This document shows positions 44,324 through 49,916 of a stretch of DNA of 64,000 bases, piece after piece. The number at the start of each line of letters is the position of its first letter. Position 1 is the stretch's first letter. This DNA comes from Pelosinus propionicus DSM 13327 (GTDB taxonomy: Bacteria > Bacillota > Negativicutes > DSM-13327). The translations under genes were made by a program, and so were the position numbers. The stretch lies in assembly GCF_900114615.1 (NCBI RefSeq), contig NZ_FOTS01000003.1:62001-126000 (forward strand). The letters run 5' to 3'. The notes under the pieces are model-generated. The model saw only the letters and a program-made list of their open reading frames with translations. It searched no databases and was not told the DNA's origin.

Positions 44324-44909
44324 AGGACTTCACCTCTTTTAAACCCTGACTTAGCAATGCTGATATCGGAATAATCGTAGCTTTTGGAAAAGTCGAAGTC
44401 AACTGTACGAGATTCTCTTTAGCAAAAGGTACATCAATCTTATTTGCTAAAATTGCATATGAATTGCGAAATAAACCATAATTGTATATTTCACGATCTA
44501 CAGTACTAGGATTATTTACATATTCGTTAGTGATATAAGATAAATCAACAACATGAAATATAAAATCTGCACAGCGCATTAAACTGATTGTTTGAGCCAT
44601 ACCACGACGAATTTTCTCTTCCTGATGTATTTTTTCACCTATCCCACAAGTATCTGTAAGTTTGAAATTTACTGTTGTTTTTCCAAGAGTAATTTTAAGC
44701 AATAGTGATTGCAAAGTTTTTGTTTTATGTATTGCACTGCCACAGAGCTCTTTCTTTGCATCTTCAATAGAAAAATGTCGACATGTGATTAAATCATCAT
44801 ATGTACGAAAGGTCACGTCTACTGTTTTTATGCCAATATAAGAAGCAAAATTGAGAGTAAACATAGTTTTACCTGAATTGGGTCTACCAACCACAGTAAG
44901 TTCTCTCAC
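44304..44909 (-). CDS. Small Ras-like GTPase coupled to spoVK
   Basis: 201 residues. G1 GRPNSGKT (8-15), G3 DTCGIG, G4 NKID and G5 ISAL are present, so GTP binding is likely. The GTG start at 44909 overlaps the spoVK stop (GTGA) with GGAGG upstream inside spoVK. Family not recognised beyond the P-loop GTPase fold. Its coupling ties it to spoVK, so a role in sporulation is inferred. Confidence 0.78.
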   Translation of the reverse strand: MRELTVVGRPNSGKTMFTLNFASYIGIKTVDVTFRTYDDLITCRHFSIEDAKKELCGSAIHKTKTLQSLLLKITLGKTTVNFKLTDTCGIGEKIHQEEKIRRGMAQTISLMRCADFIFHVVDLSYITNEYVNNPSTVDREIYNYGLFRNSYAILANKIDVPFAKENLVQLTSTFPKATIIPISALLSQGLKEVKSCVARNV

Positions 44910-45301
44910 ACTTTTACCTCCTTCAAATCAATAGGTTCAATTAATATTAGCTCTTGCCGAGTTATACTCGTTTTTGACATTAATCTAACAGCCTGATGAC
45001 GAATTGCTTTTTCAATCATATTGCGAACAGTCCTAGCATTACCAAAGTTGTCGTTATTACTGCTGTGCTGTAGTAATAACTTTAATAACAATGTTTTAGC
45101 GTCTGCCGATAAGGTATATTGTCGCTTGACACATAGTTGTTCTGCTATATGTAAAAGCTCTTCTTGATTATAGTCTGGAAAATCAATATGTAATGGAAAT
45201 CGCGATCGTAAACCCGGATTGGTTTGTAAGAAGAATTCCATTTCCTTTTGATAACCAGCTAGAATTAAGATTAATTCCTCTTTATGATCTTCCATTGATT
45301 T
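44906..45301 (-). pseudogene. spoVK: spoVK 3' part, interrupted by a DNA element
   Basis: 131 codons encoding the C-terminal AAA+ half of SpoVK: KSMEDHKEELILILAGYQ (sensor 1), NPGLRSRFP with the Arg-finger region, and the lid helices. The frame continues upstream only to a stop just past 45301 and has no ribosome site; the first ATG is at 45295. After precise excision of 45302-49303 it joins the 5' part at 49304 in frame. It is a reversible interruption, not decay, as both halves are otherwise intact. Confidence 0.92.
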
Positions 45302-45327
45302 TACGAAAACGAATTATTAAAGACCTA
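45292..45327. repeat. Left recombination junction (att site) of the spoVK element
   Basis: Contains host half-site CCATTGAT (45292-45299), the shared core TAC (45302-45304) and element half-site GACCTA (45322-45327). The core TAC matches the one at the right junction. Confidence 0.82.
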
Positions 45328-45630
45328 TAAATATAGATAAATTCCATCATATATGTATAAAAAAATGACGTTTTAAATATATAGTTTTGAGCTTATATTC
45401 TTTGATGTACTTTTATTAATTTTCTTATTGTATTTTTACTATATCGTGTTGAATACTTATCAAATACTCATACAGAAACAAGAACAGTCTTTTTTTATTA
45501 TTATCCAAAAGTTTGCTAAAGGTATCCCAAAGGTTCTTTTATAAATTAATAAGTATTTATCCTTCATGATACTCACCCTTTTATTCAACTATCATATAAT
45601 GTATTAACCGACGATAAAGGAGGAGTACTT
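45305..45630. other. Left end of the element
   Basis: AT-rich sequence without ORF. It holds the left att half-site and a promoter-like TCACC-N17-TATAATGTAT (45573-45604) before the YjcZ-like gene. Nothing else recognised. Confidence 0.6.
45573..45604 (+). promoter_or_regulatory. Promoter of the YjcZ-like gene
   Basis: TCACC (45573-45577), 17 nt, TATAAT (45595-45600) continuing GTAT. CATATAAT also resembles a sigma-E -10 (CATACAAT). The same TCACC-N17-TATAATGTAT occurs before spoVK. Confidence 0.5.
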
Positions 45631-45747
45631 ATGGGTCTAGGTTTTGGAGGCGGTCGTAATGGCTTCGGCGGTTCCGGCTGTATTATTATCATAATTATTA
45701 TTTTATTATTTTTCTGCTGTGATAACGATTGTTCTCCAAGCTGTTAA
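45631..45747 (+). CDS. YjcZ-like small sporulation peptide (38 aa)
   Basis: 38 residues: glycine-rich start MGLGFGGGRNGFGGSGC, an Ile-rich membrane segment and a Cys-rich tail (FFCCDNDCSPSC). This pattern matches the YjcZ-type small hydrophobic sporulation proteins. AAAGGAGGAG gives an excellent ribosome site and a strong terminator follows at 45784, so it is a genuine gene. It is cargo of the spoVK element. Confidence 0.85.
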   Translation: MGLGFGGGRNGFGGSGCIIIIIIILLFFCCDNDCSPSC

Positions 45748-45783
45748 ATTCTTCAAGCTAATCCGCCAAACCATTTCCTCTGC

Positions 45784-45818
45784 AACCACGTTTCCACCAA
45801 AACGTGGTTCATTTTTTT
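45784..45818 (+). terminator. Terminator of the YjcZ-like gene
   Basis: Perfect 10-bp stem AACCACGTTT/AAACGTGGTT, 6-nt loop, T7 run. Confidence 0.93.
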
Positions 45819-45828
45819 ACATTGTTAA

Positions 45829-45848
45829 AAGCGCCCTACGGGGCGCTT
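45829..45848 (-). terminator. Terminator of the Cys/His-repeat gene
   Basis: Perfect GC-rich stem AAGCGCCC/GGGCGCTT with tetraloop TACG, followed by T residues on the minus strand. Confidence 0.9.
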
Positions 45849-45861
45849 GGCAACGATGATA

Positions 45862-46191
45862 TTAATACCAATCATGATTACATTTATTACACTTACATTC
45901 CTGATCAAAGTCATAACTACACCATGGGCACTTATGACAATCTTTGTGGCATTTATTATGACATTTAGGACACTCACATTGATCATGCGCATCATGACCG
46001 CATTTAGGACATTTATGCCAATCTTTCTTACAATCATGATGGCACTTTGGACATTTGCATTCATCATGGATATCATGATCGCATTGAGGGCATTTATGCC
46101 AATCTTTCTCCCACTCATTATGACACTTTGGACACTGATGGTGTATTTCAACATGACATTTGCAATCACGCTGGGACTCAAAGCTACTCAT
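45862..46191 (-). CDS. Cys/His-repeat protein (zinc-knuckle-like, element cargo)
   Basis: 109 residues made of CPxC pairs about every 13-16 residues: CPKCHNEWEKDWHKCPQC, CPKCHHDCKKDWHKCPKC, CPKCHNKCHKDCHKCPWC, CNKC. About 23 Cys and 18 His imply many metal-binding sites, like multi-zinc proteins or Cys-rich spore coat proteins. ATG 46191 follows GAGGTGAGATA; the GTG at 46209 contains that site. A sigma-K-like promoter lies upstream. Other frames here are repeats of the same DNA. Confidence 0.78.
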   Translation of the reverse strand: MSSFESQRDCKCHVEIHHQCPKCHNEWEKDWHKCPQCDHDIHDECKCPKCHHDCKKDWHKCPKCGHDAHDQCECPKCHNKCHKDCHKCPWCSYDFDQECKCNKCNHDWY

Positions 46192-46220
46192 TATCTCACC
46201 TCTTTCCACAGTATTTAATA

Positions 46221-46248
46221 TATACTATGTAAATTGAGCGAAATGAGT
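46221..46248 (-). promoter_or_regulatory. Sigma-K-like promoter of the Cys/His-repeat gene
   Basis: Minus strand: AC (46247-46248), 17 nt, then CATAGTATA (46221-46229), a perfect match to CATANNNTA with the sigma-K spacing. In AT-rich DNA chance matches are possible. Confidence 0.5.
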
Positions 46249-46688
46249 GCCAATTATTAAAATAAACGTCCACTACAACGTGTACCTTACCTTTTACATA
46301 TTTACTTGCACTATCATCATGAAACTTACTTTTACGGTAGTTCTCGTATTTTTCATGTATTTATTCTTTATACATCCCCTTTAATAAAATAAAAATACCG
46401 GCACTCATATTAGTAATACTCGATAGTATCAGCTTCCTTTCATGGGTAGCCATTTATTTTTTTCACCATATATATACTTGTTTAGCTGGTGTCAAAGTAC
46501 TTTTTCACAATAGCAGTACCATCTCATTACAACAATGTTTATTAAAACTTTTTAACCAATAAACCTACAGAGGAGACTTCGCTATCAACAACATATGAAT
46601 TACAAAGCCTGCCAGAGTATCTATATTTCATAATAACTGGTATTTTCAACATATCAAAACCTGTCTACTTTTTTAGCTGGAGCACCAG
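46249..46688. other. Gene-free stretch in the element
   Basis: AT-rich sequence between the Cys/His-repeat gene and the 57-aa gene, apart from the upstream promoter. I see no ORF, strong repeat or RNA motif. Confidence 0.5.
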
Positions 46689-46862
46689 CTACTGACGTCC
46701 AAATACTTCGTAGTAAATCCTGAGTTGAGCCCTTGCTAAGTGCCGGTTGTAGTTATTTACCGCTTCTTTTCCGGGCTGATTTAGCATTTTCCAATGTACT
46801 TTTATTTCTTTTAGTTTTTCTGGCGATATTTTAGTTCGATTAGTATTTTTGGTACCTTCCAA
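46689..46862 (-). CDS. Small basic protein (57 aa), candidate accessory factor of the recombinase
   Basis: 57 residues, helical and Lys/Arg-rich: MEGTKNTNRTKISPEKLKEI start, KVHWKMLNQPGKEAVNNYNR and RAQLRIYYEVFGRQ end. TTG at 46862 with TCGGAGG 8 nt upstream. It is shorter than typical gene-finder limits. Small basic proteins of this size act as directionality factors for some serine integrases (SprB of SPbeta); assigning this role here is inference only. Confidence 0.6.
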   Translation of the reverse strand: MEGTKNTNRTKISPEKLKEIKVHWKMLNQPGKEAVNNYNRHLARAQLRIYYEVFGRQ

Positions 46863-47715
46863 AATCTTCGCCTCCGATTCAAATTGTGCTCATTACAGTT
46901 TATGCTGGATAAGATTGTCCGTTTTACAGTTTTTTTACTTTATATCCTTAGGTAGCAGAACCTTACTTAAAGAAGATAGAGCATTAACAAATGTTTCTTT
47001 ACACTAAAAACAAAGTAAAGACACGTCTAGCGTAGTTCTTTTAAAACGTAGTTGAGCAAACAATTCTTGCTCACAATGAAAACTAGAATTTTAAAAACAT
47101 AAACAAACATATTTTTACTCTCTATAAACTGAATTGTACCTTCTTGAATTGGTTATTTTATAAAACGTCCAATTCAAGAAGATACAATTCAATAATAGGT
47201 AGGCTATATATTTAGCATTTATTTACACTTTTCTCATTAGTAATAGCACCACTACTAGTTTTAGAACCTATCAATTAGGAGTAACTGATGCGTATCAACC
47301 TCATGTGATACTTTCTGTAAAAAAATCGTTTTCTATGCTTGTGTCAATATAACTAGACAATGATTTATTGGCTGTAACTAAAATCATTAGGGAACTTTTA
47401 GATTTAAAACTCGAATTCTGTTATATTAATTAAATTATAAAAAATACTGCTAGCGTTTGCCCTTTGCAATTCTTAGTTATTAAGTAATTTTGATGTTTAT
47501 CTTTGCATATCTTTAATATTGGAATAGTTTTAAAAAACTTATTACTCAATAAATTCTCTTTATTTTATGCTATGCATAAGATACTATACTGCGCAACAAT
47601 AAAGTTAATTTACAATCATTTTTTTTCAAGTTAAACTAATAGACAAAAACACATAACACTATTCCAATAATAATAGATGATATTATGAAATACATGTTTT
47701 AGGAGGTTCATATAT
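46863..47715. other. Long non-coding stretch upstream of the recombinase gene
   Basis: AT-rich with no ORF that I trust. It contains a short hairpin TGAGCAA/TTGCTCA near 47055 and a 22-bp hairpin at 47131-47190. The recombinase ribosome site is at 47701. It may hold a promoter for developmental control, but I find no convincing sigma-E site. Confidence 0.5.
47131..47190. repeat. 22-bp hairpin inside the element
   Basis: GAATTGTACCTTCTTGAATT-GG against CCAATTCAAG-AAGATACAATTC, 21 of 22 pairs, loop 16 nt. No T run follows, so it is a stable RNA hairpin or DNA-binding site rather than a clear terminator. Confidence 0.75.
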
Positions 47716-49245
47716 ATGATTGCAGCACTTTACATACGTGTATCTACAGCTGATCAAGCAGAAAAGGGATATTCTCTTGAAACTCAGTTAACAGAAAACC
47801 GTAAGAAAGCAAGTGAATTGGGAGCAACAAATTTCGTAGAGTTTATTGATGATGGCTATAGTGGTGAATATATTGATCGCCCTGCCCTCACTCAACTGCG
47901 GGATGGATTAGAAAGAAAAGAATTTGACATAGTTGTTATATACGACCCCGATCGATTAGCCAGAAATCTAGCGCACCAGCTTATCATTACAGATGAAATA
48001 GAAAAGTCTGGGGGGAAATTGTTCTTCGTCTCGGTCACCTTTGAATCATCGCCCGAAGGAAAATTATTTTATTCTATGCGTGGTGCCATATCCGCCTATG
48101 AAAAAGAGAAAATTAAAGAACGTACAACTCGTGGTAAGAAGGGAAAGGCTCGCCAAGGTAAGCTAGTAAATAACGGTCACTGTTTTGGATATGAGTATGA
48201 TAAAGCTAATAGTATGTATATTATAAATGAAGATCAAGCTGTTATTGTGCGTCAAATCTTTAATTTATGCATCAAAGATAAATTAGGTACCGCCCTCATT
48301 AGCAAAGAATTGAATCGTGAAGGGATTCCTGCTCCTCGTGGTAATCACTGGATAGTTTCAAGCATCCATCGAATACTCACGAATACAGCTTATCGAGGTA
48401 TTATTTACAGCATGAAGCACAAATCCACTAAAACAGGTTTTAATACTCGTAAAATTGAGACTCGCCCTGAATCCGAGTGGATTCCCATCCAAGTACCTGC
48501 TATTGTTGATGAAATCACTTGGCACTTTGCGCAAAAACAATTGCAACTAAATAAGGATTTATCTAAAAGAAACTTAAAATTTGACTATCTTTTAAATGGT
48601 TTAGTCTACTGTAAACTCTGCAACAGAAAAATGACCATCAAACATTCTGGCAATGGTGATAGCCCTATCAGCTATTACGTTTGCTTAACGCAAGTTAGCA
48701 CATCCTATATGTATTTAGAAAATGAAAAATGCACAGTTAGGCGTATTCCTGCTGTCATACTAGATGAATTGGTATGGGATAAGTTAAATGAATTAGCAGA
48801 AAACCTTGAACTAATAGATCAATATGCACAAGATATTGGCAATCCTAGCGCAGCAGCTAAAGTTAAAAACACTTTAATAAAGCTAAAAGAAACTGAGAAA
48901 AAAATAAAAACCCAAAAGGACACTGTTATGCGATGGTTTCGACGACAAATCATTAGTGGCAGCGATGCTGAAAAACATTTAGATGATATCAACAAGCAAC
49001 TTATTAATATCGAGGTTACAAAAAAACGTTTAAATGATGAGTTGAATCTTCTTACACTTCAAATTAGTCCAGTAAATACTATAAAGAAACTTAAAAATCA
49101 TTTTAAAGATTCTCAATACTACTCAAATGACGAGCGAAAGGGAGCAGTGCGCACAGTGCTCGAAAAGGTAATTGTTGAACGAATTGACACTACCTATGCC
49201 AAAAATAGCAAGCCTGAATTAACGATTGATTTAAAATTTTTATAA
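47716..49245 (+). CDS. Large serine recombinase (SpoIVCA-like)
   Basis: 509 residues. A resolvase-type catalytic domain (nucleophile S10 in IRVSTADQ; YDPDRLARN; SYEKEKIKERT-like SAYEKEKIKERT), a recombinase domain (REGIPAPRGNHWIVSSI), a zinc ribbon (CKLCNRKM and distal CLTQ... C) and a coiled coil (about 390-470) are in the canonical order. It belongs to the family that excises skin and integrates phages such as phiC31. AGGAGG lies 9 nt upstream. Its stop is about 60 nt from the right junction of the spoVK element. Confidence 0.95.
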   Translation: MIAALYIRVSTADQAEKGYSLETQLTENRKKASELGATNFVEFIDDGYSGEYIDRPALTQLRDGLERKEFDIVVIYDPDRLARNLAHQLIITDEIEKSGGKLFFVSVTFESSPEGKLFYSMRGAISAYEKEKIKERTTRGKKGKARQGKLVNNGHCFGYEYDKANSMYIINEDQAVIVRQIFNLCIKDKLGTALISKELNREGIPAPRGNHWIVSSIHRILTNTAYRGIIYSMKHKSTKTGFNTRKIETRPESEWIPIQVPAIVDEITWHFAQKQLQLNKDLSKRNLKFDYLLNGLVYCKLCNRKMTIKHSGNGDSPISYYVCLTQVSTSYMYLENEKCTVRRIPAVILDELVWDKLNELAENLELIDQYAQDIGNPSAAAKVKNTLIKLKETEKKIKTQKDTVMRWFRRQIISGSDAEKHLDDINKQLINIEVTKKRLNDELNLLTLQISPVNTIKKLKNHFKDSQYYSNDERKGAVRTVLEKVIVERIDTTYAKNSKPELTIDLKFL

Positions 49246-49255
49246 ATCTTCAGTT

Positions 49256-49852
49256 TTATACTATGTATGTATGTATTTTTTTAGGTCCTTGTATACTGGT
49301 TACTACCAATACATCAATGGATTCTTTCCCAAAATCTTTTTCACCGCCCCGAGCCAAAGAGTATGCTTCGTCAATAAATAAGATGCCACCATATGCTTTC
49401 TTTAATTGTTCACGAGTCTTCTGGGCTGTATGCCCTATATATTCTCCAACCAAATCAGCTCTCTCAACCTCAATAAGATGACCACGTTGTAAGATTCCAA
49501 TCTCACGAAAGATTTGCCCAAGTAGCCTCGCCACAGTGGTTTTCCCTGTACCTGGATTTCCTTTAAAGATCATATGCAGCACTAATGGTTCGGTATTTAA
49601 TTTTTCTTGTACACGGCGACGCTGAATTTCAATAAATGCATAAATCTCTCTTACCAAGTTTTTCACTTCTGATAATCCGATTAAATGGTCTAATTCATAT
49701 AAAATTTCTTCTATTCGCTTTTGCCGATTATCGATTTTAGTATGACAAGTAGTTATATTATCTAATTTGCGCAAAGACTTAAACGCCTGAGTTGGTGATA
49801 TTTCACCATTTCCAACAGCTGTAAAAACATCTTGTGGATAAACATAGGTCAT
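49256..49852 (-). pseudogene. spoVK: spoVK 5' part, interrupted by a DNA element
   Basis: Encodes SpoVK residues 1-183 (to 49304): a divergent N-terminus, then AAA+ Walker [20 protein letters not shown] and Walker [11 protein letters not shown]. The frame then enters element sequence and stops at 49256 after an unrelated VTSIQG tail. It lacks sensor 1 and the Arg-finger region, so it would be inactive until rejoined. Total after excision is 314 residues (B. subtilis SpoVK is 322). ATG 49852 follows GGGGTGA. Confidence 0.92.
49282..49320. repeat. Right recombination junction (att site) of the spoVK element
   Basis: Contains element half-site TAGGTC (49282-49287), core TAC (49304-49306) and host half-site ATCAATGG (49313-49320). 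Confidence 0.82.
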
Positions 49853-49884: not shown

Positions 49885-49916
49885 ATACATTATACTCAGA
49901 ATGCAAGAAACGGTGA
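49885..49916 (-). promoter_or_regulatory. Promoter of spoVK
   Basis: Minus strand TCACC (49912-49916), 17 nt, TATAAT (49889-49894) continuing GTAT. Sigma-A-like -10; identical fixed positions precede the YjcZ-like gene in the element. Confidence 0.5.

Follow-up and report, generated by a model that had tools for sequence, protein, structure and literature searches.

Is the spoVK gene of Pelosinus propionicus DSM 13327, which is found in two separated parts, reassembled during sporulation, or has it been lost? Intervening elements in sporulation genes are known in sigK, spsM, spoVFB, spoVR, gerE and yabG.

A 4,002-bp element divides spoVK in frame

The two spoVK parts lie on the minus strand of the 64,000-nucleotide stretch of DNA that was analysed (the window). 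The 5' part (49304–49852; codons 1–183) covers the AAA+ N-terminal region with the Walker A and Walker B motifs; it scores 240.8 bits on its own against TIGR02881 (spore_V_K) and is 68–97% identical to the 5' parts of other split genomes. The 3' part (44906–45301; codons 184–314 plus the stop) supplies the remaining AAA+ module and the lid, recognized by Pfam AAA_lid_6. An earlier note on this DNA had claimed that removal of 45302–49303 joins the halves precisely. Indeed, deletion of these 4,002 bp gives an in-frame 314-aa SpoVK, with GATGTATTGGTAAAATCAATG as the joined allele across the junction, which scores 419 bits against TIGR02881, slightly under the curated cut-off of 422.95. The cut, which the note placed between Walker B and sensor 1, falls within the AAA+ core. 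The note was right that the halves carry no further lesion: neither contains a stop or a frameshift. No second spoVK was found in the 5.4-Mb genome.

Both junctions share a core, GTA on the coding strand (shared TAC), located at 49304–49306 on the 5' side and at 45302–45304 on the 3' side (both minus strand). The cut point may be shifted by up to 3 bp inside this core, leaving the product unchanged. Upstream of spoVK lies a candidate sporulation-type promoter, CACC-N17-TATAATGTA (49886–49915, minus strand), whose position is kept across the class, the match being weak in any one genome. Note that the 3' part contains an in-frame ATG two codons past the junction.

The element carries a single large serine recombinase

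The element was said to have a large serine recombinase (LSR) at one end, and it does: an intact 509-aa protein (47716–49245, plus strand) is encoded antisense to spoVK, and its end lies some 60 bp away from the junction with the 5' part. This sole LSR of the element has the Resolvase, Recombinase and Zn-ribbon domains of Pfam and the catalytic Ser10 in the context YIRVST, and it was assigned to a PHROG integrase family and placed in the LSR tree.

Five spoVK elements of Pelosinus are complete, and the only clear non-recombinase ORF that all of them keep encodes 57 aa (46689–46862, minus strand). It is a candidate recombination directionality factor; it had no family match in Pfam, PHROG and TIGR searches. 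Small conserved ORFs also occur within the elements of other LSR clades, the candidate directionality factor differing between clades. A counterpart of the clade B/C small ORF was sought in the Pelosinus elements and rejected, the weak matches of its profile being translated low-complexity sequence. The cargo further comprises a 115-aa zinc-ribbon ORF (45862–46209, minus strand; Pfam DZR), present in one other Pelosinus element, and a 38-aa glycine-rich, hydrophobic ORF (45631–45747, plus strand; YjcZ-like by eye), kept in three Pelosinus elements. PHROG comparison revealed no phage genes in the 4.0 kb, and no close relative of the LSR was found in the phage collection (best match, 40% identity over 63%). 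We found no convincing sigma-E or sigma-K promoter 5' of the recombinase, and consensus scans for both sigma factors 5' of the recombinases gave no excess over shuffled controls in most genomes.

The same codon is split in about half of the related species

A true spoVK was identified in 48 species genomes of the class; in 25 of these, from seven families, the gene is split at the identical codon (Val183|Lys184). This count leaves out G669, whose matches are spread over different small contigs, and G293, in which the gene is contiguous with a frameshift; G732 was rejected as well, its apparent split being no more than a break between contigs that overlap by 18 bp. The skin-like layout proposed in the earlier note recurs throughout: in all 20 complete loci, that of DSM 13327 included, the insertion lies at the same codon and the in-frame junction is exact, and each element (2,969–23,103 bp) has exactly one full-length LSR, always of a single family and antisense to spoVK. 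Intact spoVK in relatives had been suggested as a check, and the intact orthologs do run continuously across the same codon. In six genomes of other genera with intact spoVK, no LSR of the element type was detected at E≤1e-100; one of the intact-spoVK genomes (G002) has only LSR paralogs of 38–43% identity. Intact and split genes are interspersed among relatives.

The split lies inside long contigs of independent genomes, several of them assembled into no more than three contigs (G001, G003, G006, G309, G311 and G312). Among the single-contig genomes are P. fermentans JBW45, which was sequenced by PacBio (PMC4582584), and a 5.115-Mb Pelosinus genome, probably UFO1, in which spoVK and sigK are both split. 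In one relative, the spoVK halves are inverted and about 292 kb apart, so that a large inversion would be needed to rejoin them.

Both halves evolve like parts of a working gene

Split spoVK is under strong purifying selection, with dN/dS values of 0.02–0.12 for both halves in several species pairs (0.035 and 0.044 for the two halves in the pair G000/G001), and none of the 20 rejoined genes contains a stop or a frameshift. The LSR gene is constrained as well (dN/dS about 0.10–0.13, about 0.10 for that of DSM 13327). Within Pelosinus, LSR divergence parallels that of the host spoVK, as judged from the tree and from dN/dS, a pattern that supports retention of the element in the germ line and its vertical inheritance in this genus.

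Comparison with known intervening elements

Like the sigK skin of Bacillus subtilis and Clostridioides difficile, the element divides a mother-cell sporulation gene into two in-register parts and contains a large serine recombinase; the skin stays in the spore chromosome, as this element would. It differs from skin in its target gene, its distant recombinase and its lack of detectable phage genes. The sigK gene of DSM 13327 is also divided, into three pieces, by recombinase elements, and its sigK-skin LSR is only 27% identical to the spoVK LSR. With its location in spoVK and so distant an LSR, the element is not a sigK skin element proper.

The earlier note had regarded interruption of spoVK as outside the classical cases. 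This claim has to be given up, because a precedent exists: SPβ-like prophages of Bacillus occupy the same codon. In Goe14, for instance, the insertion lies within 3 bp of the same spoVK point, after the Val183-equivalent codon; the attachment site is marked at 1742–1744 in the Goe14 record, and the spoVK locus was reportedly given for this phage by Kohm et al. in 2022. Nevertheless, those prophages are large (125 kb for Goe14) and use the core AAG, as opposed to 4.0 kb and GT(A/G) here, and the Goe14 integrase is 29% identical to the spoVK-element LSR over 376 aa. The element is not an SPβ-like prophage, which would be a phage genome of some 130 kb carrying SPβ genes.

Three other systems bear a resemblance. 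The gin element in gerE of Bacillus cereus ATCC10987 is likewise free of phage genes, and a serine recombinase removes it when the cell sporulates, but it spans 28.6 kb, has three recombinases, interrupts another gene and is a single reported case, as against a class-wide occurrence here (PMC5595907). The yin element in yabG of Clostridium botulinum V73 is also a recombinase element in a sporulation gene, with a directionality factor that is merely predicted, but it is prophage-like, sits in another gene and is known from one strain only (PMC10747680). Finally, in heterocyst-forming cyanobacteria, the large serine recombinase XisF reassembles a developmental gene in a terminal cell by removing the fdxN element. 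Gene and development are different there, and the spoVK-element LSR scores 102.6 bits against the XisF model, far under the cut-off of 375.

Proposed mechanism and alternatives

We consider it highly probable that the 4,002-bp segment is a skin-like spoVK-intervening element, cut out by its LSR in the mother cell during sporulation: about one in two related spore-formers has the gene interrupted at the same codon, and the divided gene evolves like an intact one. In vegetative cells and in the spore chromosome, the element would remain integrated and the divided spoVK silent. During sporulation, the LSR in the mother cell, probably assisted by a small element-encoded directionality factor, would recombine both attachment sites at their GT(A/G) core, releasing a 4-kb circle and restoring the reading frame. 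The mother cell would then make SpoVK and die, so that the element would be transmitted via the spore. What we infer is excision itself, its timing, its restriction to the mother cell and which protein acts as directionality factor. The spoVK gene of B. subtilis acts in the mother cell, is dependent on sigma-E and SpoIIID (PMC517825) and, when lost, lowers sporulation about 10^6-fold (PMC10659427); yet Pelosinus UFO1, probably the source of the 5.115-Mb genome with spoVK and sigK split, forms heat-resistant spores (PMC6107796).

The chief competing explanation is a generic mobile element which uses a conserved coding site and leaves it occasionally, outside any programme, with sporulation open to those cells that happen to have lost it. 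Related LSRs of this genome indeed adjoin or interrupt other genes, among them feoB, a non-sporulation gene, and comFC, beside phage-like genes; the alternation of intact and split spoVK among relatives implies gain or loss, and the recombinase lacks a recognizable sporulation promoter. Against this stand the presence of the element in roughly every second species, across seven families, the co-divergence of LSR and host gene in Pelosinus and the sporulation-regulated behaviour of the analogous Bacillus systems (PMC4191935, PMC5595907 and PMC6957869). Moreover, rare accidental excision would hardly maintain halves constrained as strongly as intact genes, and we regard this explanation as unlikely.

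The same constraint bears on the idea that spoVK is a pseudogene left by a dead insertion, sporulation having been lost or SpoVK being dispensable. Spore formation is undocumented for JBW45 (PMC4582584) and spoVK is missing from some spore-formers (PMC3533761), but the low dN/dS of both halves, the 20 open rejoined genes, the junctions that are in frame everywhere and the intact recombinases largely refute this reading, which is very improbable. Could the two parts instead be expressed separately and assemble as SpoVK, leaving the DNA as it is? Both are conserved and the 3' part has its in-frame ATG; however, that part has no evident start codon, promoter or ribosome-binding site, the AAA+ core itself is cut, and junction codons and attachment half-sites are retained exactly, always together with a recombinase, making a split protein just as improbable. 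As for an assembly artefact, the DSM 13327 genome is a 134-contig draft, but the recurrence of the split in independent genomes, some of them closed, reduces this probability to almost nil.

Implications for sporulation in the Negativicutes

As far as our literature search found, small spoVK elements that occur class-wide and lack recognizable phage genes are new. Since loss of spoVK in B. subtilis lowers sporulation about 10^6-fold (PMC10659427), many species of the class would need a DNA rearrangement to form spores if the same is true here. A broader reading, to which we give even chances, is that spore-forming Negativicutes have long relied on the element's own recombinase to reassemble spoVK, a sporulation step that is often passed on vertically and is kept in roughly every second species by elements which share one LSR family and bear ordinary, non-phage cargo. 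At least two unrelated recombinase lineages would have converged on the same codon, the same enzymes would rebuild spoVK by large inversions after rearrangement (about 292 kb in one species), and the Pelosinus mother cell would need several rearrangements, one in spoVK and one or two in sigK.

Split and intact relatives, together with three related recombinase clades, provide many natural replicates for asking what draws such elements to sporulation genes, and if they control sporulation or merely survive in it. They also offer a serine recombinase family with candidate directionality factors and readable attachment sites in one conserved target. The core of these sites is GT(A/G), GTA being common to both junctions in DSM 13327. 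In the DSM 13327 element, the palindromy of the attP arms does not exceed that of shuffled sequence (p about 0.21); in one LSR clade, the reconstructed attP is clearly an inverted repeat, with up to 22 of 24 pairs (p 0.0033, the floor of the test).

The spoVK gene is interrupted in frame at a single codon

spoVK is split in two: codons 1–183 lie at 49304–49852 and codons 184–314 at 44909–45301, both on the minus strand. Deletion of the 4,002-bp segment between the two parts (45302–49303) joins them in frame, as the earlier note had claimed, and the rejoined protein scores 419 bits against the TIGR02881 (spore_V_K) profile, narrowly below its curated cut-off of 422.95, compared to 241 bits for the 5' part by itself. 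The trinucleotide TAC is present at both element ends (45302–45304 and 49304–49306), which pins the cut point to within 3 bp, and exchange anywhere inside this core gives the identical SpoVK product. No second spoVK was found across the 5.41-Mb draft genome.

True spoVK genes, called by identity and length, were recovered from 48 of 380 genomes of the class Negativicutes. The gene is split in 25 of these (seven families) and contiguous in 23, one of the latter being frameshifted. The contiguous genes provide the comparison proposed in the earlier note, namely intact spoVK at the same site in relatives: these orthologs are continuous across the break point, Val183|Lys184. All 20 complete loci, i.e. 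those with both element ends on one contig and in direct order (including the window's), are broken exactly at Val183|Lys184 and join in frame, the core at the break being GT with A, G, C or T as third base. The gap between the halves ranges from 2,969 to 23,103 bp; as its length is often no multiple of three, read-through is impossible. One of the split genomes, G006 (probably Pelosinus UFO1), consists of a single contig of 5,115,410 bp.

Both halves of split spoVK exhibit dN/dS values of 0.02–0.12 (0.035 and 0.044 for the halves in the G000/G001 Pelosinus pair; the top value, 0.12, comes from the very close pair G005/G006), comparable to or below that of an intact pair; for the recombinase the value is about 0.10–0.13. 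A 3' part for which no separate start is evident could scarcely have been kept this clean unless expressed within SpoVK.

Content of the elements and inheritance of the recombinase

The large serine recombinase (LSR) that the element had been said to carry is indeed there, a 509-aa protein (47716–49245, plus strand) with Resolvase, Recombinase and Zn-ribbon domains. The element also holds a conserved 57-aa ORF (46689–46862, minus strand), a zinc-ribbon ORF and a very short one that is Gly-rich and hydrophobic; a PHROGs search of it matched the recombinase and no phage structural genes. The cargo of bigger elements, judged by sequence inspection only, resembles ordinary genes: an apparent thiamine operon (G105), a chemotaxis-like operon (G104), apparent pyruvate:ferredoxin oxidoreductase and kinase-type genes (G308), and an apparent enolase with transporters (G039). 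Its G+C content is near that of the flanking DNA. By eye, small ORFs resembling Spo0E-type phosphatases were seen in the spoVK elements of two Pelosinus genomes (G005 and G006; L045, L046).

Each of the 20 complete elements encodes one full-length LSR and no more, always antisense to spoVK, and those of the other elements are 47–86% identical to the window's. At E<=1e-100, an element-type LSR was found in none of the six intact-spoVK genomes of other genera (ten genomes checked), and the intact-spoVK congener G002 contains nothing nearer than paralogs at 38–43%. The LSR tree comprises three groups: Pelosinus; families f9, f12, f18 and f30; and families f27 and f31. The second group covers families whose spoVK genes do not cluster, which suggests that it moved horizontally. 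Within Pelosinus, LSR and spoVK co-diverge (dS 0.13–0.89 and 0.08–0.59, respectively, for the same close pairs), which suggests vertical inheritance.

Serine integrases require a recombination directionality factor to excise. A homologous 50–60-aa ORF lies near the LSR in two LSR groups (18/18 genomes); it is absent from Pelosinus, whose own 57-aa ORF is kept in all of its complete elements (five) and also in G007, where the element is partial. Both ORFs are candidates for this factor. The attP site, rebuilt from the outer arms of the elements, is strongly inverted-repeat in one LSR clade (17–22 of 24 pairs in several genomes, reaching the p floor of 0.0033) and less so outside it; the window's arms, with 14 pairs (p 0.21), show no palindromic excess. 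Upstream of spoVK, a CAC-N15-17-(C/G/T)(A/G)TATAATA-like site, weak in each genome, is conserved in position across the class and resembles a mother-cell promoter; no convincing promoter of this type was found upstream of the LSR.

A probable skin-like element in a sporulation gene

In Bacillus subtilis, spoVK is expressed in the mother cell, depends on sigma-E and SpoIIID and has a sigma-K promoter too (PMC517825). SpoVK, for which a hexamer model exists, acts there as an AAA+ chaperone of MurG, and strains from which the gene is deleted sporulate about 10^6-fold less (PMC10659427). Growth of UFO1 cultures resumes after heating to 85 C for 32 min, which was read as a sign of spores (PMC6107796). 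Should Pelosinus need spoVK to the same degree, its two parts have to be rejoined. The reading of the segment as a skin-like element, which we infer to be excised in the mother cell with a candidate helper protein, is well supported.

Sporulation genes known to be interrupted include sigK, spsM, spoVFB, spoVR, gerE and yabG (PMC10747680, PMC6957869, PMC5595907), and kamA, with phage phi3T, is an additional case (PMC8270828); spoVK is not named among them in these papers. Interrupted sporulation genes being already known as a kind, the surprise of the spoVK element is its class-wide reach and the convergence on its site.

The same codon is used elsewhere. In G448, a genome of another class, a 75.6-kb insertion lies at this codon (C60:5634-82216; L162, L163), and its LSR is only 27% identical. 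Eight large IMG/VR contigs (129–154 kb; L231-L237, L239) carry a spoVK 5' part ending there, and the one tested is kin of SPβ-like Bacillus phages. In phage Goe14, the annotated attachment site AAG (1742–1744) aligns directly after the codon, and the integrase is 29% identical to the window's LSR over 376 aa. Kohm et al. are said to have described spoVK as the Goe14 locus in 2022.

In one genome of the class, G304, a single 819-kb contig carries the two parts of spoVK in opposite orientation, separated by about 292 kb (C4:442898 and 735196; L073, L074), with both attachment half-sites intact. By this geometry, recombination would invert the ~292-kb segment and rebuild spoVK.

Other interrupted genes in Pelosinus

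sigK of P. propionicus is in three pieces (G000:C78:180423-180863, L077; 186141-186376; and the last residues, VSRIEKKAIGKLGKSLSAEDS, at 188748-188810), separated by two different LSR elements, with one LSR per gap. The first gap measures about 5.3 kb; the other, of about 2.4 kb, has a repeat of 17 bp (GTCTCGCGAATTGAGAA). All Pelosinus genomes checked have sigK in at least two pieces: three in G003 (P. fermentans JBW45) and G005, two in G001 and G006. A small ORF resembling a Spo0E-type phosphatase, again by eye, lies in the sigK element at G000:C78:183042-183230.

Further LSR genes were noticed at G000:C34:88194-89678, directly downstream of spoIIR, and at G000:C49:5539-7035, close to a small ORF; no split gene was recognised beside either. 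Outside the sporulation genes, feoB is divided by an element of ~3 kb that carries an LSR and a YitT-like gene (G000:C34:57520-62439, L079), and the feoB parts seem to join as GTMAVMV|TRTLETRRER. comFC is cut close to its 3' end, next to an LSR and regulatory genes of phage-like type (G000:C57:1-4738, L080), an interruption likened to the comK prophages of Listeria.
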